This document shows, piece by piece, positions 1,975 to 63,371 of a stretch of DNA of 64,000 nt. The DNA is from Sipunculus nudus (lineage: Eukaryota > Annelida > Sipuncula > Golfingiida > Sipunculidae). Under the pieces are notes generated by a model. That model ran no database searches, was not told the DNA's origin, and worked only from the letters and a program-made list of their open reading frames with translations. Both the position numbers and the translations under genes were made by a program. Where the stretch lies: NCBI GenBank assembly GCA_026874595.1, contig CM049315.1, positions 71,779,416 to 71,843,415 on the forward strand. The letters are read 5' to 3'. Numbering within the stretch: position 1 is the stretch's first letter; every line of letters begins with the position of its first letter.

Positions 1975-3300
1975 TTTGTACCCGCCAAAACGAAGTTTTG
2001 TGGATACTATGTTTTTGACCGGGTTCCTCCGCCGTTGCCGCATTCGTTTCCAGAGAGCTCCTCTGGGACTTGATTTTATCAGCTTTCCAAGCTCATATCT
2101 CGGGAACCGTTTGACTGATCAGGAAATAAAATTTATACTAATGTAGCCTTTGGACAGCTCTATAACATACACAAAAAATGGTGGCGCCACCTGTAACCAT
2201 GTTTGCACAGTGTCCATCTGTTCATCTGCCTTTGGTTAAAACCACTCATATCTCTGCAGTGAATTGACTAATTCACCTGAAATTCGGCATGCGTATACAT
2301 CCTGGATAGCTTTCTTAATTTTATGACAGGTGGCGCCACCTACATTCTCATTCATGCTGATGACATCCAAGCTCATATTTCGGGAACCGTTTGACCGATC
2401 GGGCCAAAATTTTGCATGTATATAGATCTAACATAGCTCTTTATCATACGCTAAACTGGTGGCGCCACCTGCAACCATTTTTGCACAGCGTCTGTCTGTT
2501 TGTCTGCCGTGCAATAAAGTCACTCATATCTCGGCAGTGGTTTGACATATCTGCCTAAAATTTTGCAGTTTTATACATCCTGGATAGCTTTCTTGATTTT
2601 ATGACAGGTGGCACCACCTACATTCTCGTTCACGCTAATGACATCCAAGCTCATATCTCGGGAACCGTTTGACCGATCGGGCCAAAATTTTGCATGTGTA
2701 TAGATCTAACATAGCTCTTTAACATACACAAAACTGGTGGCACCACCTGCAACCATTTTTGCACATTTTGCACAGCGTCTGTCTGTTGGTCTGCTGTGGC
2801 CTAAAATCACTCATTTCTCTGTAGTGGTTTGACATAACTGCCTAAAATTTTGCAGGTTTATACATCCTGGATAGCTTTCTTGATTTTATGACAGGTGGCG
2901 CCACCTACATTCTAGTTAACGCTGCACACATCCAAGCTAATATCTCATGAACCATTTGACCGATTGGGCCAAAATTGTGCTTGTGTTTAGATCTCACATA
3001 GGTCTTTATCATACACAAAACTGCAACCATTTTTGCACAGCGTCTGTCTGTTTGTCTGCCGTGGGCTAAAATCACTCATATCCATGTAGTGGTTTGACTT
3101 TTCTGCCTAAAATTTTGCATATGTATACAACTTGGACAGCTTTCTGGATTTGTGGTAGGTTGCACAACCTACATACACATTTAGGCTGCAGACATCCATG
3201 CTAATATGCAACATACCTCACTCTGTTTCCCCTTGCCACTCAATCCATGCCTCACTTCACTCTGATTTTGGCAGATACACGTAGTCACTTGTCGGCTACC
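1975..3300 (+). mobile_element. Second Helitron-like family, tandem-unit copy
   Basis: The head (GCCAAAACGAAGTTTTGTGG hairpin, then GATACTATGTTTTTGACCGG and CCGCCG) resembles the head of the element at 62063. It is followed by repeated blocks of about 280-290 bp, each with the phrases CTCATATCTCGGGAACCGTTTGACC and CATCCTGGATAGCTTTCTTG. The 12-bp palindrome GGTGGCGCCACC, or one-base variants, sits at 2180, 2329, 2458, 2607, 2736 and 2894. No protein is encoded. Confidence 0.65.
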
Positions 3301-4560
3301 CGTATTCTAGTTTTTAAAGTTTACACATTTTTTCTCTATTTTTCAGATATATAAAAACAGACTAAATCTTGGCCTGTTGGTTAATCTGTTTGATGCTTCA
3401 GTTGAATGGGTATCTACCATTATGATGATAAAATTTCCTTTTGTGAATCTCTTCCCAGTCAGCTGAGCGTCATGACCCATGGGTCACTTGTTTTTCTCTA
3501 TTTTTGAGACCTTTAAAAATGTGGACATCTGTCAACAGGGCACAAATCGTGAAGACTGGACCTAGAATCTTTGTTCTTGACATTCTGAGAGACCTATGAA
3601 AAGTCTCCATGGAAACCAGAAATTAGGTCTCTGTTACCCATATCCTTGGAGCTATGGGGCCCCAAAATACCCCCAGAATAGTCAAAAATTTTATACAAAA
3701 ACTTCAATATCTCATTAACTGCATCACTGATTGTCATGATTTTTGGCATACATGTTGATCATGAGATGTTCCTGCAGACTGGTGGCGCCACCTGTATTTT
3801 TCGATTTTTTACGAATTTTTTTCTCTATTTTTGAGATCTTTAAAAATGTGGACATCTGTTAACAGAGCACAAATCGTAAAGACTGGATCTAGAATCTTCA
3901 TTCTTGACATTCTGAGAGACCTATGAATAGTCTCCATGGAAACCAGAAATTAGGTCTCTGTTACCCATATCCTTCAAGCTATGGGGCCCCATATTGATCA
4001 TGAGATGTTTCATCAGTTTCAGCAGACTGGGTGCACCACCTCTATTTTTTTCAAATTTTTACGAATTATTTTCTCTATTTTTGAGACCTTTATCTGTCAA
4101 CAGGGTACAAATTGTAACAACTGGACCTAGAATCTTTATTCTTGTCATGCAAGGAGGCCCATGAAAAGTGTCTGTGGAAACCTGAAATTAGGTCTCTGTT
4201 ACCCATATCCTAAAAGCTATAGGACTCCAAAGTATCCCTCAAAATAATGGAAAATTTGATACAAAAGCTGAAGTAGCTGAACAACTTATCCAGAGACCAC
4301 CATGCTTTTTTGCATGGATATTGGCCATTAAGTGTTTTTATTAGTTTCTGCAGACTGGTGGAACCACCTGTATTTTTTTAAAGTTTACACATTTTTCCTC
4401 TATTTTTGAGATATATTAATACAGACACAATCTCAGCCTGTTGGTTAATCTGTTTGATGCTTCAGTTCAATGGTTATATACTACCATTCTGATGATAAAA
4501 TTTCCTTTTGCAAATCTCTTCCCAGTCAGCTGAGCGTCATGACGCATGGGTCACTTGTTT
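3301..4560 (+). mobile_element. Helitron-like (HINE/pearl type) family 1, duplicated 3' ends
   Basis: Two copies of a roughly 190-bp 3' segment (3300-3490 and 4370-4560) share the phrase CCTGTTGGTTAATCTGTTTG and end in AGTCAGCTGAGCGTCATGAC with a terminal CTTG. The first carries the perfect palindrome TGACCCATGGGTCA at 3473-3486; the second differs by one base (4540-4553). Between them lie internal units (phrases CAGGGCACAAATCGT, CCTGAAATTAGGTCTCTG; palindrome motif at 3781-3792). No open reading frame of note. Confidence 0.7.
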
Positions 4561-4850
4561 TATGTCCTGGAGTCAACCAGGCCTGGTAACTACTGCACCT
4601 TGGGACCCAGGTTGCGTAAACATCTCCATTGCTGGGTCATACCACCAAGGAACACCCTAAAGGCAAAAATTGATTGTGAGTGACACAAGGTGGTTTTGCA
4701 TGGCCTCCTGATTAAGCCTGCAAAGCGCTCACCCTGAATGGGGGCCGACCATGAAAAATCTCACCGCCTCAGCTGAGATTCAAACTCATGATCTCCTGGC
4801 TTTGAGTCCTTTGCTCTACCCCTGAGCCACAGAAGGCAGTAGTACTGTTA
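4561..4850 (-). mobile_element. tRNA-derived SINE
   Basis: Read on the minus strand, positions 4829-4812 give TGGCTCAGGGGTAGAGCA, a good match to a tRNA A box, and 4787-4775 give GAGTTTGAATCTC, a good B box. Their order and spacing fit a tRNA head used as an internal RNA polymerase III promoter. The remainder (about 4561-4760) is unrelated body sequence. It is not a working tRNA gene: no proper acceptor stem was seen. Probably a SINE of a mollusc tRNA-derived family; exact ends uncertain. Confidence 0.65.
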
Positions 4851-36640: not shown

Positions 36641-37523
36641 TTTATACGGTCGTGCAGTACAATACATTACATTGATAAACTGGGTGTTGCAGTACCACTG
36701 TTCTCATGGGTTAAAATAATCTTCTCATTCTATGACCATTATTGACCTCTTCTTTTTTATATTACGCCGTAACTTGAACAATTGTACCCATGAAATAGTC
36801 AAAGCATTCATACACTTACTTTAATATATATCTTTATTCCTAAAATTAATGGAGATTGCTCTCTCTGATATGTTGGATTGCCTCCAGATGGCGCACTCTG
36901 GCGCATCCCGTGTAAAACTGGAGATTTCCTTTCTTATTGAGGTCTAATGATCGTCAAACAACCTTGGTTTAATTTAGCTTTAGAATTCGTATTAAAATGA
37001 ATTTTAGCCACAATGATATATACATATTTGGAATCCTTAGAATATCTGCTGTTTCACAAGGTGCCGTATTTACAGCGCAAAATGTTAACGATTTCAGTGA
37101 TAGTCGACGCTGTTAGCTGGCTTTCACAGAAACATACACGGAGCAACGTTTACAGGACAACCAGTACAGCGTAATAATTATACATAAGAAGCGGCGAGTG
37201 CCAAGCAATGCACTATTTTATCGGTTTGTAGTATTCGGCTACGTCATGAAACGTAAATATTCTTGAAACAAGCTTTTGAATATATTCAAAATACATAGAC
37301 ATATTGAGCATAAAATAAGACAAGATAATAGCATGGGTGAAATAGTTATAAGCCCTTGCAAGTACGCAAAGTTTACTGAAATAACAAGCGGCTATTTCAT
37401 ATTTCATGACATATTCTTGCTAAACTACGACGTTAACCCGTTAAGGATGGCCCTGACATAATTTTGGGCAGTGACACAGACCTAAACAAAATTCAACGAT
37501 CTGCATAAAAGACAGGGGTTCAG
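36641..37523. other. Intergenic stretch
   Basis: No gene or repeat recognised. Confidence 0.4.
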
Positions 37524-38139
37524 GCCCGGCTATCCGCTTCCCAGTTATCCGCTTCCCAAATATCTGCTCACCAAATATCCGGGTGCCCATATAACCGTGT
37601 GTGAGCATTAACGGTTGAAAATGACCCTGCATGGTTTATATATGCAACGGTCATGGAAAAAGAAGATGAAGGAAGACATCAAGGAACATTTAAATACAGG
37701 AGCTCGGGTAATTGAAGCATTTTTTACCAGATCGTGACATCGCTTTTGTGTCAGCTTTATATTCATTTTTGCAGGTTCTTATTAAGTTACCCCGAGCGAT
37801 TGTTTTTGCATCATTCATGACACATATATGTTGACGGACGGACAAAAAAAAACTGGTGTTGCATTTGTTGCCATAAAGGTGATTATAAGAGATTATACAT
37901 ATTCCTTAACAATATTTTTTTACCTTAAAATGTTAGCTTGGATGTTTTCATCACGTGAACCTTGGGAAACCCCGTTTGCATGATATAAATAAGCTGTTTC
38001 CTGTAGTCGAAAACCGCTCCGCCGTGAGAGGGTTCTCTTTAAGTGTAATACAAACGTTAATGCATCCTTGATCATGTAACCTCGATTGAATCATTAAGGC
38101 AAGTACACCCTTAATTATCTAAATAAACATAACAACATC
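37524..38139 (+). repeat. Fold-back element, left outer arm
   Basis: Starts GCCCGGC, then five 15-bp units, then sequence such as CATGGAAAAAGAAGATGAAG, CATTCATGACACATATATG and AAAACCGCTCCGCCG, all found in reverse complement at 41343-42114. Compared with the right arm it lacks about 147 bp, present there at 41747-41893. Confidence 0.85.
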
Positions 38140-38140
38140 T

Positions 38141-38184
<44 letters not shown>

Positions 38185-38941
38185 TGTGAATATGAAATGA
38201 ATTATACAATACTACACTTCTTACATATAACTTAATCGGACAAAATAATGTAATTAAGTGAGACAAGTCTGGGATCCATTATAATTAATTTAACTCTCTA
38301 TCCGTCTCTCTCTTTTTATGTCTCTCATTCTATCTCTCATTTCCCCCCCCCCCTTATATTCATTCATTCTTTCTTTCTTTCTCTCGTCATTTACATCGTT
38401 ATCGGACAAAATAAAGTTATTAAATGAGACAAGTCTGGGATTTATGAAAATAAAACTCATTTATTAATTAATAAATTAATTCATTCATTTAGTCTTTCTT
38501 CTTCCCTTATTTTATTTCTCCTTTATCTTCTCTCTCCATCTCTGTTTATGAGTCTAATAATGCAATATTAAACGACTTACATATACCGTTATCGGACAAA
38601 GCAAAGTTGTTAAATGAAACAGGTCATTGGAACTATAAAAATTTAATTAACGATCTCTTTCCTTCTCTCTCTCATCCTTATTTTCATTATTTCTTTCTAT
38701 CTCTCTCATTCCATCTCTCATCCCTTCATTATTCATCCTTTCTTTCTCTTTTTCTCTCTGATTCATCCATTTATTCTTTGTCTCCAGATATATCGTTATC
38801 GGAAAAAATTATTGAATAAGAATCCATCGAAATTGAATTAACTCTCTCTCTCTCTCTCTCATTCTTTCTTTCTCCTTCTCATTCATTCATTCAACCATTA
38901 ATTCATTCTTCCCTTCTCTCTCTTTCGCCATCCCTCTCTCT

Positions 38942-38942
<1 letters not shown>
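38140..38942 (+). repeat. Fold-back element, left inner tandem array (first part)
   Basis: A TC microsatellite (38139-38184), then units that each contain ATCGGACAAAATAAAGTTAT, a GAGACAAGTCTGGGAT phrase, AATTTAACTCTC and CATTCATTC or TTTCTTTCTC simple repeats. Unit starts near 38238, 38400, 38590 and 38798, so length is about 160-200 bp. Confidence 0.8.
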
Positions 38943-38994
<52 letters not shown>

Positions 38995-38997
<3 letters not shown>

Positions 38998-39557
38998 TAC
39001 GGAACCTAATATCAACAGGTCACGTATGCGTAATGAACACAAACTTTGTCAATAGGATGAAAAAAAAATCAGATTCTGTAACACTAGGCAGCGTGAAATG
39101 TCTAGGGGAACGAATAAAGAAGTCAGTGGTTTTATGTTAACAAATAACTATAATTTATTATTAAAACAACCCTTGTAAACAGCTCTTGTAACAATCCAGA
39201 AAGTAAACTTGAGGCAGGCAGCACTTAATTGTAAAGTGTTAGTAATAGTAGAATTCCTGAAATTACTGGATAATTGGATAGGTCCCACACTCTCATCTCT
39301 CTTTCCGCTTTAAAACACAGCCCCCTATTTATAACTTCTCGCCCCAAGCCGAGAATTTTAAACTTCTCGAACAATCTAAAGAATCTAAAACAGTACACAC
39401 GTTCAAAGAACATACCAGGCCAGGCGAGAAAGCCCCAAGCCAGCATGACAACGAGAGTTCAACCAGTACAGTTAAAACTGAGAGTGCAACACGCGGCCAG
39501 ACACGGGCGCTACAACACGAGTTACGCCCGTGTCACACAATAAAAAGGGCACCTGTA

Positions 39558-39560
<3 letters not shown>
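38995..39560 (-). mobile_element. Solo LTR, copy A
   Basis: On the minus strand it begins TGTTACAGGTGCCCTTTTTA at 39560 and ends GGTTCCGTAACA at 38995, the TG...CA form of a long terminal repeat. It carries a TATAAATA box (about 39334-39327) in the middle and AATAAATTATAG-type poly(A) text further on, in the U3-R order. A second copy, 808 bp, lies in the opposite orientation at 43351-44158. No internal retrotransposon genes adjoin either, so both are solo LTRs. It sits inside an AT/TG microsatellite, so a target duplication cannot be seen. Confidence 0.7.
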
Positions 39561-39601
<41 letters not shown>

Positions 39602-39608
<7 letters not shown>

Positions 39609-39732
39609 TTACAACGAAAATGTGCAGTTACACATTAACACGTGTTTTCATGCTGCCGCAAACATCTGATGATTGCGGCAGCATGAAAACACGTGTTAAT
39701 GTGTAACTGAACATTTTCGTTGTAAATTCTGT
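39602..39732. repeat. 131-bp near-perfect hairpin
   Basis: Arms 39602-39660 and 39674-39732 are 59 bases each with one mismatch, around a 13-base loop (39661-39673). It lies between two long AT tracts within the left arm of the fold-back element. The following sequence (TATCAGCTCTTAGCATCAGG onward to about 39795) may be more of the same inserted element, plausibly a fragment of a Penelope-like retroelement given the ribozyme-like core. Confidence 0.9.
39662..39702 (+). ncRNA. Hammerhead-ribozyme-like core
   Basis: In RNA terms: stem I 5' strand ACAU (39662-39665), CUGAUGA (39666-39672), a short stem II with UGC/GCA around a GGCA loop (39674-39683), GAAA (39685-39688), a short palindromic stem III ACACGUGU (39689-39696), the cleavage triplet UUA (39696-39698), then stem I 3' strand AUGU (39699-39702). 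All conserved core bases are present in order. Very small type I hammerheads of this kind are known from Penelope-like retroelements. Stem II has a U-U mismatch at its base and stem III is tiny, so a single copy may be weak or inactive. Confidence 0.45.
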
Positions 39733-39797
39733 GTATCAGCTCTTAGCATCAGGCTAATGGAGCACTGTTAGATTCGTTCTGCACCTATATACTTCTA

Positions 39798-39798
<1 letters not shown>

Positions 39799-39877
<79 letters not shown>
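39799..39877. repeat. (AT)n microsatellite
   Basis: AT run of about 78 bp inside the left arm of the fold-back element. Its partner tract lies at 39567-39601. Confidence 0.95.
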
Positions 39878-39879
<2 letters not shown>

Positions 39880-40275
39880 TGATCGGACAAAATAATGTTA
39901 TTAATGAGACAAGTCTGGGACAAATTAAAAATTAAAATTAACTCTCTTTTTCCTTCTCTCTCATTATTTCTCTTTTCTCTTTCTATCTCTCATTCATTCA
40001 TTCATTCTTTCTTTCTCTCTCGTCATATATATCATTATCGGACAAAATAAATTTCTTAAATAAGACAACTCTGGGATTAATGAAAATTGAAATATCACTC
40101 TTTCCGTGTCATATTTTCCCTTTCTCTCTATCTTTCATTCATTCATTCATTCTTTCTCTCTCGTCATTTACATCGTTATCTGAGAAAATAAAGTTATTAA
40201 ATGAGACAATTCTGAATAAATGAAAAAAAAATAAAATAAAATTTACCCACCCCCTTCTCCCTCTCTCCTTATGCT
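39878..40275 (+). repeat. Fold-back element, left inner tandem array (second part)
   Basis: Resumes the units interrupted at 38943: ATCGGACAAAATAATGTTAT at 39882, ATCGGACAAAATAAATTTCT near 40036 and a decayed unit near 40180, each followed by GAGACAA(G/C)TCTGGGA-type text and TC/CATT runs. Confidence 0.8.
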
Positions 40276-40440
40276 AAAAAAATAAAGAAAATACCACAGA
40301 AGAAATCAAAAGATATCACTCTTTACTTGACCTTTTGAGCCAGCATGCAGAAACATTAAATATTTGCAACATAGGCCTTAATACACTTGCGTAAAATAAT
40401 ATTTTCATTTGCAACATATAAAGACAAAGCTACCTTGCTA
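40276..40440. other. Fold-back element, unique central core
   Basis: The only stretch of the element with no inverted partner. No gene or known motif was recognised. It would be the loop of the folded structure. Confidence 0.6.
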
Positions 40441-40657
40441 TCCCAACTCAGAGAAGGAAGAATGAATGAATAAATGAATGAATGAATGAATGAATGAATG
40501 AATGAATGAATGAATGAATGAATGAATGAATGAGATAGAGAAGGAGAAAGAATGAGAGATAGAATGAGAGAAAGACGGAAAGAGAGTTAAATTAATTATA
40601 ATGGATCCCAGACTTGTCTCATTTAATAACTTTATTTTGTCCGATGATATATATTTG

Positions 40658-40710
<53 letters not shown>

Positions 40711-41281
40711 GGGAGAAAGAGAGAGAGCCTGAGAGAGTAAAATTAATTTTAATGGTTCCCGAACTTGTCTCATTTAATAACTTTATTTTGTCTGATAACG
40801 ATATATTTAGCGAGAAAGACAGAAAGAAAGATTGGAAGAATGAATTAATGAGAGAGAGAGAATGAAATAATAATAGAAAGAATGAGAGAGAGAGAGTTAA
40901 TGGAATTTTCATGGATCCTAGAATTTTCTAATTAATCAACAATTTTGTCCCATATCGATATATGTAAGGCGTCTAATATTGCATTATCAATTGCATATAC
41001 AGAGAGGGAGAGATAGAAAGAATGAATGAGAGAAAGAAAGAAAAGAAAAGAAAAGAAAAGAAAAGAAAAAGAGAAAGAAATAAAGGATGAAGGAATGAGA
41101 GAGATTGAATAAGGAGATAGAAAGAAAAAAATGAGACTCAGAATAAGAGAGAAAAGACGGAAAGAGAGAGTTAATTTAATTTTCATGGATCCTATGTCTT
41201 GTTTCATTTAATAACATTATTTTGTCCGATAATGATATATGTAAGGCGTGTAATATTGTATAATGCATTTCTTATTCACAA

Positions 41282-41342
<61 letters not shown>
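40441..41342 (-). repeat. Fold-back element, right inner tandem array
   Basis: Reverse-oriented units: CCCAGACTTGTCTCATTTAA at 40607, further copies near 40763, 40925 and 41193, with GAATGAATG (40462-40531), GA (40660-40700, 41291-41340) and GAAAA (41037-41068) simple repeats. These are the reverse complements of the CATT, TC and TTTTC runs on the left side. Confidence 0.8.
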
Positions 41343-41343
<1 letters not shown>

Positions 41344-42114
41344 GCAGATGTTGTAATGTTTATTTAGATAATTGCGGGTATACTTGTCTTTATGATTAAA
41401 TCGAGGTTACATGCATGATCAAGGGTGCATTAATGTTTGTATTACACTTAAAGAGAACCCTTTCGCGGCGGAGCGGTTTTCGACTGCACGAAACAGCTTA
41501 ATTATATCACGCAAGCGGTGTTTCCCCAGGTTAACGTGATGAAAACATTCAAGCTAACTTTTTAAGGTAAAAAATATTGTTAAGGAATATGTATTTATAA
41601 TCTCTTATAATCAACTTTATGACACTAAATTTAGAACCAGTTTGTTTGTCCGTCCGTCACCATATATGTGTCATGAATGATGCAAAAACAATCGCTCGGG
41701 TAAACTTAATAAGAACCTGCAAAAATGAATATAAAGCTGACACAAAAAGTAAAATTAATAATAATTTAATAAAAGCAGTGTTTTAACTAAGGCCGGGATG
41801 GCCTCACACGCACAAGTTTGCTTGGAGCGTCGCGGTTCAGTGATCGCACACATGCGGTAATCCGTTGACCCAATTCAGGACACCAGCCTCGACAGCGATG
41901 TCGCGATCTGGTAAAAAATGCTCCAAAAACCGGTAGCACCTGTATTTAAATGTTCTTAGTGTCTTTCTTCATCTTCTTTTTCCATGACCGTTGCATATAT
42001 GAACCGTGCAGGGTCATTTTCGACCGTTAACGCTCACGCACGGATATCTGGGCACGCGGTTACTTGGTGAGCAGATATTTGGGAAGCGGATAACTGGGAA
42101 GCGGATAGCCGGGC
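41343..42114 (-). repeat. Fold-back element, right outer arm
   Basis: Reverse complement of 37524-38139, including CGGCGGAGCGGTTTTCGACT near 41465 and the five 15-bp units at 42033-42107. It has an extra 147 bp at 41747-41893, which is either an insertion here or a deletion in the left arm. Confidence 0.85.
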
Positions 42115-42650
42115 GGACACCCGGCCTCCGCACGCCTGTCAATCAAAAATGGGTCGTGCACCGCCAGGAAATAGTTAACCAATAAGCAATTGAATACCCT
42201 GTTGCCTCTCGCCGAGCTGACAGTGGTCCTGTATACAACCCACGTGGGGTTGACATCTGAATTAAAATGCTTATTTTTCCAATGGATACAATATAAAGCC
42301 AGAAAAGGGTTTTTGTGATAAGATAGATATAACAAGCAACTATAAGGTCACGGTTTTAAAATATGTCAATTTTACGATTTTTGACGATCATGAGACCTTA
42401 ACGTTAATTAAATCTAGAAATATGTATCAAGGGCGTGTTATAATCCAACAGAATATATAAAGTGTAAATTTCGTAATCCTGCCGTTTATAGGAGCGCTTT
42501 CTACCCGCGATGAAAAACTGCATTTCCGTAGAATATCTTTAAAAGCGAAACGTAGGAATCATGGAGGAAAACCTTTCACATAACATTTAAAATATAAAAA
42601 ATATTACACAATTAATGTTCTTAATCTATTTATCGTAAATTCTTTTTAAA
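42115..42650. other. Intergenic stretch
   Basis: No gene or repeat recognised. Confidence 0.4.
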
Positions 42651-43350: not shown

Positions 43351-44158
43351 TGTTATAGGTGCTCTTTTTATTATGTGACACGGGCGTAACTCCTGTTGTG
43401 GCACTCGCGTCTGCCCACGTGTTACATTCTGTGTTTAATCCGTACTGGTTGAACTCTCGTTGTCATGTAAGCCTTGGGTTTTCACGCCTGGTCGTGGGTC
43501 ACGTGATGACCCTGGTGTGTGGGGATAAACACGGCTATAATCTTCTCGATAATTCTTGAAACGTGTGTTGTGCAAGATCTTATGGACTGTTCGAGAAGTA
43601 GAAAATTCTCGGCTTGGGGTGTGAAGGTATGTAAAGGGGTTGTGTTTTAGAACGGAAGGGCAAAGAGCAGAGAAGATTCCAGCGGACGCAGAAGCGTGTG
43701 TCAGATTCTAGGACCTTATCCGAAGAATGCGGCAATTATACATTTTCAAAGTCTCTCTCCTGGATTTTTAAGCATTTGGACTTCAGTTTACTTTCTGGGT
43801 AGTTGCAAGAACTTTCCATTGGACTGTCATTCTCCGGGAGTTTACATTTAAAGGACTTATCGTTGTGATGGTCTTGGTATCCAGGTACTGTGCGCATGGT
43901 TTTTCTACGTGATTGTATTGACTTGTTGTTATACCGCTGTTTTACTGTAAAATTGTATTGATTGAGTGTATTGTATTGTCAGGGTTGTTTTAAGGATAAA
44001 TTATAGTTATTTGTTAACAAAAAAACCACTGACTGCTTTTTTCATTCTCCTAGGCATTTCCAGCTGCCTAGTGTTACAGAATCTGATTTTTTAAATCTCC
44101 GTTACAGAATTTGTGTTCATCACGCATACGTGATCTGTTTGTATTAGGTTCCGTAACA
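43351..44158 (+). mobile_element. Solo LTR, copy B
   Basis: Begins TGTTATAGGTGCTC and ends GGTTCCGTAACA. It shares with copy A (38995-39560, reverse) the blocks GACACGGGCGTAACTC, GTACTGGTTGAACTCTCG, GTTCGAGAAGT, AAAATTCTCGGCTTGGGG, TTATAGTTATTTGTTAACA and GCCTAGTGTTACAGAATCTG. It is longer by about 240 bp through extra text in the middle. No internal coding region adjoins. Confidence 0.7.
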
Positions 44159-46610: not shown

Positions 46611-48871
46611 AGCTCAGCTGACTGAAAGTCATCTGAGCTATAGCGATCACCCTTTGTCCGTCGTCCGGCCGTCCGTTAACAGGTCACAAATCGTAACCGC
46701 TGGACCTGGAATCTTCTCACTTGACATCCAGGGAGGTCCATGAAAAATCTCCTTGAAAACCTGAAATTAGGTCTCTGTTACCCATATCCTTTGAGCTATG
46801 GCGCTTCAAAGTACCCCCAGAATAATGCAAAATTTGATACAAAAGCTCAAGTATCTGAATAACCACTGCATTGATCACCATGATCCTTTGCATGAATATT
46901 GATCATGGGATGTTCCATCACTTCCTGCAGACTGGTGGCGCCACCTGTATTTTTCAAATTTTTACAAATTTTTTTCTCTTTTTTTTCAGACCTGCAATGA
47001 AACTGTCATCTGTTAACAGGGCACAAATCGTAACCACTGGACCTGGAATCTTCAAACTTAATATCCAGTGAGGTCCATGAAAAATCTCCTTGAAAACCTG
47101 AAATTAGGTCTCTCTTACCCATATCCTTGGAGCTATGGGGCTCCAAATTACCCCCCAGAATAATGCAAAATTTGATACAAAAGCTCAAGTATCTGAATAA
47201 CCACTGCATTGATCACCATGATTCATTGCATGAATATTGATCATGGGATGTTTCATCACTTCTTGCAGACTGGTGTCGCCACCTGTATTTTTCAAATTTT
47301 TACAATTTTTTTTCTCTTTTTTTAAACCTTTATGAAACTGTCATCTGTTAACAGGGCACAAATCGTAACCACTGGACCTGGATTCTTCAAAAATTAATAT
47401 CCAGGGAGGTCCATAAAAATTCTCCTTGAAAACCTGAAATTAGGTCTCTGTTACCCATATCCTTGGAGCTATGGGGCTCGGAATACCCCCCCCCCCCCCC
47501 CCCCCCCCCCCAGAATAATGCAAAATTTGATACATAAGCTCAAGTATCTGAATAACCACTGCATTGATCACCATGATTCTTTGCATGAATATTGATCATG
47601 GGATGTTCCATCACTTCCTGCAGACTGATGGTGCCACCTGTATTTTTTCGAATTTTTACAAATTTTTTTTTCTCTCTTTTTTTCAGACCTTAATGAAACT
47701 GTCATCTGTTAACAGGGCACAAATCGTAACCACTGGACCTGGAATCTTCAAACTTAATATCCAGGGAGGTCCATGAAAATTCTCCTTGAAAACCTGAAAT
47801 TAGGTCTCTGTTTCCTATATCCTTGGAGCTATGGAGCTCGGAAGTACCTCCCAGAATAATACAAAATTCATACAAAAGCTCAAGTATCTGAATAACCACT
47901 GCATTGATCACCATGATTCTTTGCATGAATATTGATCATGGGATGTTCCATCACTTTCTGCAGACTGGTGGTGCCATCTCTATTTTTTCGAATTTTTACA
48001 AATTTTTTTCCCTTTTTTTTCAGACCTTAATGAAACTGTCATCTGTTAACAGGGCACAAAGCGTAACCACTGGACCTGGAATCTTCAATCCTAATATCCA
48101 GGGAGGTCCATGAAAATTCTCCTTGTAAACCTGAAATTAGGTCTCTGTTACCCATACCCTTGGAGCTATGGGGCTCCAAAGTACCCCCCCCCCCCCAGAA
48201 TAATGCAAAATTTGATACAAAAGCTCAAGTATCTGAATAACTACTGCTTTGATCACCATGATTCTTTGCATGAATATTGATCATGGGATGTTCCATCATT
48301 TCCTGCAGACTGGTGGCGCCACCTATATTTTTTCGAATTTTTACCAATTTTTTTCTCTTTTTTTTTTCAAACCTTAATGAAACTGTCATCTGTTAACAGG
48401 GCACAAATCGTAACCACTGGACCTGGAATCTTCAAACTTAATATCCAGTGAGGTCCATGAAAAATCTCCTTGAAAACCTGAAATTAGGTCTCTGTTACCC
48501 ATATTTTCCGAGCTATAGGGCTCATTTATATAAATACCCCCAAGAATAATTAAAAATTTTAAACAAACAAAAGCTCAAGTATCTGAATAACCACTGCATT
48601 GATAGCCATGATTCTTTGGAAATATATATTGATCATGGAGTGTTTCATCAGTTCTGGTGGCACTATCTGTATTTTTTTTTTCAAATTTTTACTCATTTTT
48701 TTTTTATTTATGAGACCTTCAAATAAGTTGTCATCTGTCCAAAAGCCCACTCAAACCCATTTCTAAGGACTCTTCACAAAATTCATGATTTGTTTGCACT
48801 CTGGCAGTCATTTTGCTCATTGTTCAACATGACTTGAATTCAGCTGAGCGTCATGGCCCATGGGCCACTTG
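46611..48871 (+). mobile_element. Helitron-like (HINE/pearl type) family 1, complete copy
   Basis: 5' end: AGCTCAGCTGACTGAAAGTC then ATCTGAGCTATAGCGATCAC. 3' end: CAGCTGAGCGTC, the palindrome TGGCCCATGGGCCA (48854-48867) and CTTG (48868-48871). The 5' GCTCAGCTG and the 3' CAGCTGAGC are inverted copies set at the start and about 25 bases inside the end. Between are six to seven tandem units of about 340 bp, each with GGGCACAAATCGTAACCACT, GAAATTAGGTCTCTGTTACC, TTTGATACAAAAGCTCAAGT and the 12-bp motif (perfect at 46934 and 48312, mutated at 47272, 47628 and 47967). The repeated 65-75 codon open frames inside are by-products of the units. Confidence 0.8.
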
Positions 48872-50094: not shown

Positions 50095-53000
50095 CGAGAT
50101 CACTGTGATATCATTACAGAGTCACGGGTGTGAGTTCATAACTATGAACCAACTGTGAACTCATGGTTAGGTCACTGCTGTGAGTTCATGTCTGTTACAC
50201 AACATTGAGTTCACAGTGATATCACAGGATGACGTCAAAAATGTGACACCACGGTGAATTCACAACCGTGAGCTCACAGTGATATCATGGCATGAGTTCA
50301 TGTCTGTTACACAACAGAGAGTTCACAGTGATATCACAGGATGACATCAAAAATGTGACACCACGGTGAATTCAGAACCGTGAGCTCACAGCAATATCAT
50401 GGCATGAGTTCATGTTTGTTACACAACAGCGAGTTCACAGTGATATCACAGGATGACATAATTAATGTGACACCACGGTGAATTCACAACCGTTTGCTCA
50501 CAGTGATATCATGGGATGAGTTCATGTCTGTTACCCAACAGTGAGTTCACAATGATATCTCAGGATGACGCTATAAATGTAACACCACAGTGAATTCATA
50601 ACCATGAGTTCACAATGATGGCATTGCTTGAGTTCATTTCTGTTACACAACATTGGGTTCACAGTGATATCCCAGGATGAGGTAAAAAATGTGACACCAC
50701 TGTCAATTCACAAGAGTGAGCTCAAAATGATATCATAGCACGAGTTCATGTATGTTACTCATCAGCGAGCCCACCGTGATATCACAGGATGACGTCAAAA
50801 TGTGACACCACGGTGAATTCACAAGCCTGAGCTCACAGTAATATCATGGCATGAGTTCATGTCTGTTACACAACAGCGAGTTCACAGTGATATCACTGGA
50901 TGAAATCAAAAATGTGACACCACGCTGAATTCACAACCGCGAGCTCACAGTGATATCATGGGATGAGTTCATGTCTGTTACACAAAAGTGAGTTCACAGT
51001 GATGTCTCAGGATGACGTTATAATTGTAACACCACAGTGAATTCATAACCATGAGTTCACAATGATGGCATTGCTTGAGTTCATTTCTGTTAGACAACAT
51101 TGGGTTCACAGTGATAACCCAGGATGAGGTAAAAAATGTGACACCACGGTGAATTCACAACCGTTTGCTCACAGTGATATCATGAGATGATTTAAAGTCT
51201 GTTACACAAAAGTGAGTTCACAGTGATATCTCAGGGTGACGTTATAAATGTAACACCACAGTGAATTCATAACCATGACTTCACAATGATGGCATTGCTT
51301 GAGTTCATTTCTGTTACACAACATTGAGTTCACAGTGATTTCCAAGGATGAGGCAAAAAATGTGACACAACGGTGAATTCACAACAGTGAACTCAAAATG
51401 ATATAATAGCATGTGAGCTCACGTCTCAAAATCAGACTCCGCGGTGAATTCACAACCGTGAGCTCACAGTAATAGCATAGCAGTGAGCTCATGTCTGTTA
51501 CACAACAGTGAGCTCACAGTGATATCACAGGATGACATCAAAAATGTGACACCACGGTGAATTCATAACCGTGAGCTCACAGTAAAATCATGGCATGAGT
51601 TCATGTCTGTAACACAACAGTGAGTTCACAGTAATATCATAGGATGACGTCAAAATGAGACGCCGCGGTGAATTCACAACCGTGAGCTCACAGAGATAGC
51701 ATAGCAGTGAGCTCATGTATGTTATCCAACAGTGAGTTCACAATGATATAACAGGATGACATAAAAAATGTGATACCACAATGAATTCACAACTGTGAGC
51801 TCACAGTGAAAGCATGACATGAGGTCATGTGTAATTCACAACAGTTGGTTCAGAGTGATATCTCAGGATGACTTCAACATGTGACAGCACGGTGAATTTA
51901 CGGCTGTGAACTCACAGTGATATCATGGCATGAGTTCATGTCTGGTACACAACAGTGAGTTCACTTTTATATCACAGGATGAATTCAAAAATGTGACACC
52001 ACGGTGAATTCACAACCGAGTTCACAGTGATATCATGGCATGAGTTCATGTCTGTTACACAACAGTGAGTTCACAGTGATATCAAAGGATGACGTCAAAT
52101 TTTGACACCCCGGTGAATTCACAACCATGAGCTCACAGTGATAGCATAGAAATGAGCTCATGTATGATATACAACAATCAGTTCACAATGATATCACAGG
52201 AAAACGTAAAAAATGTGACACCACAATGAATTCACAACAGTTAGGTCACAGTGATAGCATGACATGAGGTCATGTCTGTTACACAACAGTTAGGTCAGAG
52301 TGATATCCCAGGATGACGTTAAAATGTGACACCGCGGTGAATTCACAATATGAGCTCACAGTAATATCATGGCATGAGTTCATGTCTGTTACACAACAGC
52401 AAGTTCACAATGATATCATGGGATGACATCAAAAATGAGCTCACAGTGATATCAGGGCATGAGTTCATGTTTGTTACTCATCAGCGAGCCCACCGTGATA
52501 TCACAGGATGACGTCAAAATGTGAAAACAACAGTGAGCATAACAGTGAGCTCATGTATGTTATACCAGAGTGAATTCACAATGATATCACAGGATGACGT
52601 CAAAATGTGACACCATGGTTAATTCACAACCGGGAGCTTACAGTGATATCTTTGCATGAGCTCATGTCTGTTGCACATCAGCGAGCTCACACTGATATTA
52701 CAGGATGACGTCAAAAATGTGCCATCATCTTGAATTCACAACCGTGAGCTCACAGTGATGACATGGCATGGAGTTCATGTAAATTACACAATAGTGAGTC
52801 CATAATGATATCTCAGGATGATATACAAATATGACACCGCGGAGAATTCACAACTGTGAGCGCACAGTGACGGTATAGCAGTGAGCTCATGTATGTTACA
52901 CAACGATGAGGTCACAGTGATGTCGTGGCATGAGTTCATGTATGTTACACAACAGTGAGATTACAGTGATATCTCAGGATGACGTTAAAATGTGACACCG

Positions 53001-53610
53001 TGATGAAAACACAACCGTGAGTTCACAGTGATGGCATTGCTTGAGTTGATGTCCGTTACAAAAGAGTGTGTTCACAGTAATAGCAGAGAATGACGTCATA
53101 ATGTGACACCTCAGAGAATTCACAACCTAGAGTTCTGTGTGATATCAAGGCATGAGTTTCTTTCTGTTACACAAAAGTGAGTTCACAGTGTTATCACAGG
53201 ATGACGTCAAAAATGTGACATCGTGGTAAAATCAGAACCGTGAGCTCACAGTGATGACATGGCATGAGTTCATGTCTGTAACACAACAGTGAGTTCACAA
53301 TGATATCACAGGATGACATAAAAAATGTGATACCACATCGAATTCACAATTGTGAGCTCACAGTGAAAGCATGACATTAGGTCATGTCTGTTACACAACA
53401 GTTAGTTCAGAGTGATATCTCAGGATGACGTCAAAATGTGACACTGCGGTTAATTCACGGCCGTAGACTAATAGTGATAGTATATAGCAGTGAGCTCAAG
53501 CATGTTACACAACAGTGAGTTCACGGTTATATCACTGGATGAAATGGCACCGCAGTGAATTCACACTGTGAGCTCACAGTGATAGCATGGAATGAGTTCG
53601 TGCATTTCAA
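50095..53610 (+). repeat. 112-bp satellite, about 31 copies, built of palindromes
   Basis: The word TGAGTTCATG recurs at 50181, 50293, 50405, 50517, then (slightly changed) 50629, 50741 and 50852, so the period is 112 with rare single-base indels. Each unit contains perfect or near-perfect 10-bp palindromes GTGAATTCAC, GTGAGCTCAC, GTGATATCAC, GTGAGTTCAC, and usually GATGACGTCA. Unit halves align with each other: 49 + 49 + a 14-bp joint (GTGAATTCACAACC), so the unit is an old dimer. Open frames are absent. The first about 90 bp and last about 40 bp are diverged edges. Confidence 0.95.
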
Positions 53611-62142: not shown

Positions 62143-63371
62143 ATATAAATCTTGTTGGCGTGATAACTCAAAAAATATTCCACGGATCTTTACCAAACTT
62201 TATATATGTATAGATATGGGTGAGAGGACGACACCTATTTAAAAAGAGGTCATGACCTTGACTAGGAGAGTGTCCTTGACCTTGAATATGTCTAATTTTG
62301 GGGAAAATCACACAAATTCTTAAATATCTCAAGAAATCTTGCATGGATTGATCCCAAAATCAAGTTGATGGAAGATCATGAATAGGGTTGTCATGTTCGA
62401 GAAACTGGTGGCGTCACCTATTATTCTTTACTTGTTGTCATGCCGTTTAATACCCCCAAAATTGGTACTTGACAGTACTGTGAGCATTATAAGTAAAAAA
62501 ATAATGGACAGATTTCTTTTATATTATGCATATACATAAATATGGGTTATGGGATGATGTTTATTTAAATTGGGGTCATGACCTTTCCTATGAGTGGCCT
62601 TGACCTTGAATATTGCCATATATGGTGAAAATCACACAAAATCATTAATATCTCAATAAGGGATGCATGGATTGGCCCAAAAATCAACTTGACCGAAGAT
62701 CAAGGATAGTAATGTCATGTACCGGAAACAGGTGGCGCCACCTATTATTCGTTTACTTGTTTTCGTGCCGTTTAATACTCTCATAATTGCCACTTAACAG
62801 TACTGTGGGCATTATAAGTCAAAAACTATCAGACAGATTTCTTTCATATTATGCATGTACATAGACATGGGTTATGGGATGATGTATATATAAATTGGGG
62901 TTATGACCTTTCCTATAAGAGTGGCCTTGACCTTGAATATTACCATATATGGTGAAAATTACACAAAATCCATTAATATCTCAATAATGGATGCATGGAT
63001 TGGTCCAAAAATCAACTTGATCGAAGGTCTTGGATAGTATTGTCATGTACCGGAAACAGGCGGCGCCACCTTTTATTCTTTTACTTGTTTTCGTGCCGTT
63101 TAATACCCCATCATTGCCACTTAACAGTACTGTGAGCATTACAAGTCAAAAACTAATGGACAAATTTCTTTCATATTATGCATATACAGAGACATGGGTT
63201 TGGGATGATGTATATTGAAATTTGGGTCATGACCTTTTCTATGAGAGTGACCTTTTCTATGAGTGTGGTCTGATATTAATTGTTGCTGAAGATGGGGGGC
63301 CTATTCATAAAGAGGGGGGGGGGGGATTGTCTGGGGATCCTATGACACCTGCGGTGCCAAGAAATATCTAG
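62063..63371 (+). mobile_element. Helitron-like family 2, complete copy
   Basis: Starts TATTGTATCCCCAGAC with a strong hairpin at 62067-62093 (GTATCCCC / GACAAAGTC / GGGGATAC), then a CCG run. Four tandem units of about 320-340 bp follow, with phrases TGGTGAAAATCACACAAA, ATCTCAATAAGGGATGCATG, ATTGCCACTTAACAGTACTG and the 12-bp motif at 62407 (one change), 62731 (perfect) and 63059 (one change). The end has GTCTGGGGATCC (63329), which is inverse to the start, and terminates AAATATCTAG (CTAG 63368-63371) before TT. A reverse copy lies at 33799-34982. Non-coding. Confidence 0.8.
62112..62142 (+). repeat. (CCG)n trinucleotide run
   Basis: About ten CCG/GCC triplets in the head of the Helitron-like element. 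The related copy at 2025 has only a short CCGCCGTTGCCGC, so the run has expanded here. The poly-alanine open frame is spurious. Confidence 0.95.

Follow-up and report, generated by a model that had tools for sequence, protein, structure and literature searches.

The fold-back elements TU of the sea urchin and FB of Drosophila have layered inverted arms with short tandem repeats, those of TU being 15 bp long. An element of this general plan lies in the stretch of Sipunculus nudus DNA considered here, 64,000 nucleotides of contig CM049315.1 (C10:71779416–71843415 in a genome of 1.43 Gb), which is referred to as the window. The closest system found in print is Tm1, a Mutator/Foldback element of root-knot nematodes (Gross and Williamson, 2011; PMC3169594). 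In the parts of that description consulted, Tm1 ends in unlike 7-bp terminal motifs that lie outside the inverted repeat, its terminal inverted repeats (TIRs) contain tandem repeats of 13–15 bp and are ca. 93% alike within one element, and its target-site duplications (TSDs) measure 8–10 bp, mostly 9; a Mutator-like element (MULE) transposase belongs to the system and the copies are mostly non-autonomous (PMC3169594). Tetris of Drosophila virilis is a fold-back element with multilayer TIRs, an internal tandem array of variable copy number and TSDs of 8–10 bp, assigned to Mutator by its authors, whose units seed satellite arrays (PMC4079207). Phantom MULEs are described with TSDs of 8–10 bp, TIRs of 18–613 bp and, in aphids, a minisatellite after the transposase open reading frame; MULE-Mollusca is listed in the same source as a transposase group without TIRs, its TSD not being indicated (PMC6446971). 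Among the listed titles and abstract openings of the literature on fold-back elements in bivalves or with microsatellites, the present family was not found described.

The element of the window is very probably a non-autonomous transposon of the cut-and-paste kind, a fold-back that derives by deletion from a MULE of the Mutator superfamily. It has the long inverted arms, tandem repeats and short middle of the fold-back class and is dispersed as a unit. A preliminary description had recognised a 4.6-kb fold-back with arms that are reverse complements of one another, and the complementarity holds for both the outer pieces (37524–37744 against 41894–42114, 90.5%) and the inner pieces (37744–38139 against 41347–41747, 89%). 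The left arm, however, is without the 146-bp middle of the right one, and the true ends lie further out: the element occupies 37517–42121, reaching 7 bp beyond the inverted repeat on either side, because two unlike 7-bp tips, here called A and B, sit outside that repeat.

Across the genome the left arm gave at least 82 matches, a lower bound obtained with 40 of 174 candidates scored, and the core that lies between the inner arrays gave 25; within the window, the left arm found no match better than E 0.009 outside the element. Twenty other loci were fetched, and 18 of them carry core and arms together, the remaining two being L052 (core only) and L055 (arms only). The arm-tip pattern had 101 genome matches and its reversed control none. 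The 100 tips listed form 28 inward-facing pairs less than 10 kb apart and no outward-facing pair, with 3 same-strand neighbours; one of the 28, C13:43814096/43822280, may join the tips of two elements, since the second tip is where L037, with its truncated far arm, comes to an end. A search for the A tip gave 53 matches (control 0) and placed it at exactly one end of all 28 pairs, the heptamer being damaged in two; at the opposite end, the 12 copies with both ends read have the B tip, in three of them with one mismatch. The arrangement of one A and one B per element is thus drawn from the A search over 28 pairs together with the both-end reading of 12 copies. A fold-back family, as the preliminary description had proposed, is thereby sustained, and the two outcomes it had named beforehand as adverse, unlinked arms and the lack of a common core, did not occur. 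Arms existing as independent repeats are ruled out by the tip pairing and by the arm tree described below.

Copies with flanking duplications had also been sought, and they exist. Seven of the 12 copies read at both tips have exact TSDs, five of 8 bp (L036, L040, L044, L045 and L050) and two of 9 bp (L043 and a copy on C15), and the family therefore transposes; L048 and L053 come near, with 7 of 8 letters each. The 8–11 bp duplication typical of Mutator/MULE elements is accordingly present in the family and missing from the window copy, whose TSD may have been lost through recombination after insertion.

The link to a MULE comes from L052 and from the C15 copy. L052 contains a 176-amino-acid open frame with a MULE transposase domain (Pfam MULE, E 2.3e-14), upstream of the core and on the same strand. 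The family core, as found in the window, the 18 fetched loci and the C15 copy, aligns to the stretch that follows this frame; it spans about 4454–4643 of L052 in the window and most copies, and 4183–4643 or 4203–4648 in two other groups, and one of its boundaries falls at L052 4639–4648 in 18 of the 20. The L052 protein gave at least 115 genome matches (150 of 185 candidates scored), and the best of those listed, L052 itself aside, is an 81% match on C15 within the tip pair 39990174/39994249. This C15 copy is 4.1 kb long, has an A tip, a B tip and the 9-bp duplication GATATGACA, and its TIRs are 97% alike over the 400 bp compared and 85.6–87.2% like the window arm. Inside it, an array unit joins the 3' part of a transposase gene (92.7% DNA identity to L052 over 695 bp; Pfam MULE, E 7.7e-15), which is followed by the trailer and then by a unit of the other array. 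A MULE transposase is hence present between the same ends, as a partial gene only, and the autonomous partner that the preliminary description had looked for between similar arms is represented by a relative that bears a transposase, truncated. Through this truncated sister copy the arms are connected with a MULE gene, and the core is recognised as the trailer of that gene.

Several points weigh against this reading. The link between core and MULE is in part built in, because the core itself served as the query that led to L052, and the C15 copy was read in part, some 1.8 of its 4.1 kb lying outside the parts read. No intact transposase between arms was found among the matches listed: the C15 gene is truncated on the 5' side, and in L052 the upstream frames are broken and no arm could be recognised within about 4.5 kb. 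Of the 115 matches listed, 2 reach at least 80% identity, both broken, and the next have 44% across almost the full query or 55% across a portion of it; no intact family transposase was therefore seen. The TSD is absent at the window copy and at L049, and that of L042 agrees at only 6 of 8 letters. Finally, the search for a mover took in MULE and KDZ transposases only.

KDZ elements make 8-bp duplications, as do the hAT, P and Merlin superfamilies. KDZ was rejected as the mover, as none of its 9 genome matches lies within a tip pair. An 8.4-kb copy on C2 was likewise set aside as a candidate autonomous element; its open frames are without a transposase, and one is retroelement-like (judged by eye, with no family search). 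None of the listed transposase matches lies inside the tip pair C3:14112101–14117107, and an intact copy may reside in some tip pair without a core match. The N-terminal FLYWCH domain, associated with Phantom and looked for as a Tm1-type feature, had no match in six pieces of the degraded sequence upstream in L052. A second MULE family, which looks young, accounts for 43 of the 115 matches listed (hand count), with 607-amino-acid frames of ca. 37% identity.

The strongest alternative to a deletion derivative is that the arms belong to another DNA transposon, moved by a different transposase, which captured the 3' end of a MULE in the manner of a Pack-MULE. L052, having a transposase without arms, would suit such a capture, as would the fact that no intact armed autonomous copy was seen, and the abundant MULE with 607-amino-acid frames could cross-mobilise the elements. 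Against it, the trailer of the same gene occupies the same position in the window, the 18 loci and the C15 copy, and the boundary common to 18 of 20 suits descent from one armed MULE; furthermore, the TSD length, the long TIRs and the dissimilar 7-bp tips are in keeping with Tm1-like MULEs. Capture is left with an outside chance.

The layout of the window element, from left to right, is as follows.

37517..37523, plus strand: tip A, GGTTCAG, outside the inverted repeat
37524..38139, plus strand: left (A) arm, outer 221 bp and inner 396 bp, without the 146-bp middle
37531..37590, plus strand: left-arm outer end, four 15-bp units of the TATCCGCTTCCCAAA type
38140..40258, plus strand: left array, units pointing inward with TC and CATT tracts, broken by later insertions
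38227, 38392, 38582, 39873, 40028 and 40169, plus strand: starts of the left-array units
38997..39565, no strand assigned: perhaps a solo long terminal repeat (by eye), which entered the left array later and is foreign to the family
39598..39736, no strand assigned: near-perfect hairpin of 139 bp, not part of the family
40259..40450, minus strand (the coding direction would be minus): core, ca. 190 bp, matching L052 4454–4647, the trailer of the MULE transposase frame
40451..41346, minus strand: right array, units pointing inward with GA and AATG tracts
40581, 40732, 40891 and 41165, minus strand: lower ends of the right-array units
41347..42114, minus strand: right (B) arm, inner 401 bp, middle of 146 bp (41748–41893) and outer 221 bp
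41834..41884, plus strand: 51-bp tip-to-tip micro-copy in the arm, GGTTCAG ... GGACACC
42041..42107, minus strand: right-arm outer end, 15-bp units
42115..42121, minus strand: tip B, GGTGTCC read inward (GGACACC on the plus strand)

The inner arrays had been described as mirror images around 40276–40440, and they are indeed inverted about this core, with a conserved unit part of ca. 45–75 bp; the left array was interrupted at about 38997–39736 by later insertions. The larger of these, ca. 569 bp long, runs from TGTTAC to GTAACA, as seen by eye, and pieces of its reverse copy lie at 43351–44158. The hairpin is placed between two TA runs and has arms of 69 bp that are 96% complementary. Long tandem arrays occur elsewhere in the window at 50181–53599 (ca. 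112-bp units), 46675–48654 (ca. 337 bp), 2156–3207 (ca. 278 bp) and 62236–63254 (ca. 325 bp).

At the outer end of each arm the 15-bp units number four in register, which agree at 13, 15, 12 and 10 of 15 letters on the left and at 13, 15, 11 and 10 on the right. A fifth does not keep register, agreeing at 3 of 15 letters on the left and 4 of 15 on the right, and the earlier count of five exact-length units per side was therefore too strong. The left 15-bp array scores 53 of 75 letters, well over the maximum of 36 reached among 200 letter shuffles. Further inward, the 146-bp middle is present on the right arm and on most arms of the other fetched copies, so that its absence on the left is probably a loss from the left arm of the window copy. 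Within this middle the two heptamers recur, arranged as in the element itself and spanning 51 bp from tip to tip, and the place is the sole one of its kind in the window, a count made without a shuffle control. In 17 of 33 arm middles both heptamers of the micro-copy are exact, and in 30 of 33 each has at most one mismatch; the set omits the left arm of the window copy, the right arms of L047 and L053, the left arm of L048, and the arms of L051 and of the C2 copy, those other than the C2 arms being the ones with little or no middle segment. The flanks of the window micro-copy, TCGAGGCT and GCGACGCT, are alike at 6 of 8 letters. The micro-copy may be what is left of an old minimal transposition, or it may provide functional ends in addition to the outer ones.

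The preliminary description had also held that simple repeats form part of the inner units, and the polarity of these repeats agrees with it throughout. With thresholds of at least 6 units for TC/GA and at least 4 for CATT/AATG, all 149 tracts in 20 of 20 interiors keep one orientation: 55 TC runs lie left of the core and none right of it, 54 GA runs lie right and none left, and the 18 CATT and 22 AATG runs are on the left and right, respectively. The 20 interiors leave out L052 and L055, which are array-free, and for the C2 copy, having no core match, the divider was set by hand. The remaining 59.4 kb of the window contain no TC/GA or CATT/AATG tract at the same thresholds. A 39-bp unit pattern had 96 genome matches (control 0). 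That the arrays are independent satellites flanked by arms by chance is highly improbable: 7 of the 96, at 5 places, do lie away from listed tips and arms, but the other 89 have a tip or arm no more than 8 kb away, against ca. 0.1% expected by chance, and the units point inward in all 20 array-bearing elements scanned. From the polarity and the closeness of the units to tips and arms it follows that the unit and its simple repeats belong to the transposon itself. A lone array unit at C4:20500922 lies ca. 400 bp from diverged MULE matches (20501315–20501726), and no tip or arm is listed in its neighbourhood.

A tree of 37 arms places the A arms of related copies together, and likewise their B arms, as in L049/L050, L040/L042 and L048/L053. 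Six pairs of sister copies, picked from this tree and not all independent, have same-side arms that are 92.1–97.6% alike, against 90.2–94.7% for the two arms within a copy, and whole elements have therefore multiplied. L045 is an exception in that its own two arms group together, and the ends of the C15 copy are 97% alike; arms are homogenised in some copies only. The core, read against the A end, has plus orientation in 10 copies and minus in 8. For 11 of these 18 copies the orientation draws on both tips, for L037, L038, L041, L046, L047 and L051 on one readable tip each, and for L039 on a damaged one. On the core tree two changes of orientation suffice, against a shuffled mean of 6.2, so that frequent flipping of the core is unsupported and the interior was inverted rarely, presumably through recombination between the inverted arrays. 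That the family as a whole spread by recombination or segmental duplication of the inverted repeat, rather than by transposition, is scarcely credible, as the exact 8–9 bp duplications just outside the tips of 7 of 12 copies, with flanks differing by eye, contradict it for the copies that bear them, and it may hold for a minority, given the copies duplicated with their flanks at 43.70–43.82 Mb of C13 (L037 and L039, and L041 on one side), the three successive arm matches at 102.42–102.44 Mb of C1, and the window copy and L049 without TSD.

Some individual copies have features of their own. L055 (C10:1150379–1151656) is a 1.28-kb copy whose arms nearly touch and in which the core was not found. 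The L053 copy has Gypsy-like polyprotein frames (by eye) on either side, at L053 2292–3197 and 7197–7583, and seems to have landed inside a retrotransposon. On C13, L037, L039 and L041 share a truncated far arm and the flank there, the A flank of L041 differing from that of L037 and L039. The C1 arm matches, at 102420614, 102428485 and 102436314, are in tandem at a spacing of ca. 7.83–7.87 kb.

As a deletion derivative of a MULE, the element would have been moved by a MULE transposase acting in trans and recognising its tips and arms. Internal deletions would have cut the transposase gene down to its trailer, slippage and unequal exchange could have varied the arrays and their TC/CATT tracts, and every transposition would then have planted a polarised set of microsatellites. 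Microsatellites serve as markers and pose difficulties in assembly, and the strict TC/CATT polarity of the examined copies provides a direct, testable route by which a transposon could seed them. In addition, the persistent difference between the two arms in most copies indicates that long inverted arms need not homogenise on moving. Some fold-backs, such as Tetris, are known without a transposase (PMC4079207), and for this reason their movers have been guessed from TSD length; here a sister copy supplies part of the gene.

Compared with the systems in print, the family resembles Tm1 in its unlike 7-bp motifs, one of each per element, and in its outer tandem repeats of 13–15 bp. One Tm1 repeat consensus, CGATTCAGTATCCGC, has TATCCGC in common with the 15-bp unit of the window, and another, CGATTCAGTATCGC, is without the second C (PMC3169594). 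The family differs from Tm1 in its TSDs, mostly of 8 bp, in its long arms (ca. 760 bp) with a unique inner part, and in its microsatellite-bearing inner arrays, none of which appear in the consulted parts of the Tm1 description (PMC3169594). With Tetris it shares layered fold-back TIRs, an internal tandem array and the TSD class, but Tetris units are 220 bp long and not of the microsatellite-bearing kind seen here, and a transposase-bearing copy, represented in the present family by that on C15, was not found by the authors of Tetris (PMC4079207). The likeness to Phantom extends to the TSD and TIR ranges and the minisatellite, as judged from its description (PMC6446971). The novelty is judged to lie in the combination of a Tm1-like plan with long unique arms and polarised microsatellite units. 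More tentatively, and with the balance leaning against it, the family, nematode Tm1 and perhaps sea-urchin TU might belong to one ancient lineage of fold-back MULEs spread across the animals and marked by dissimilar heptamer tips and by 14/15-bp end repeats of the TATCCGC type, which would here have turned into a carrier of microsatellites with a 51-bp micro-copy in its arms.

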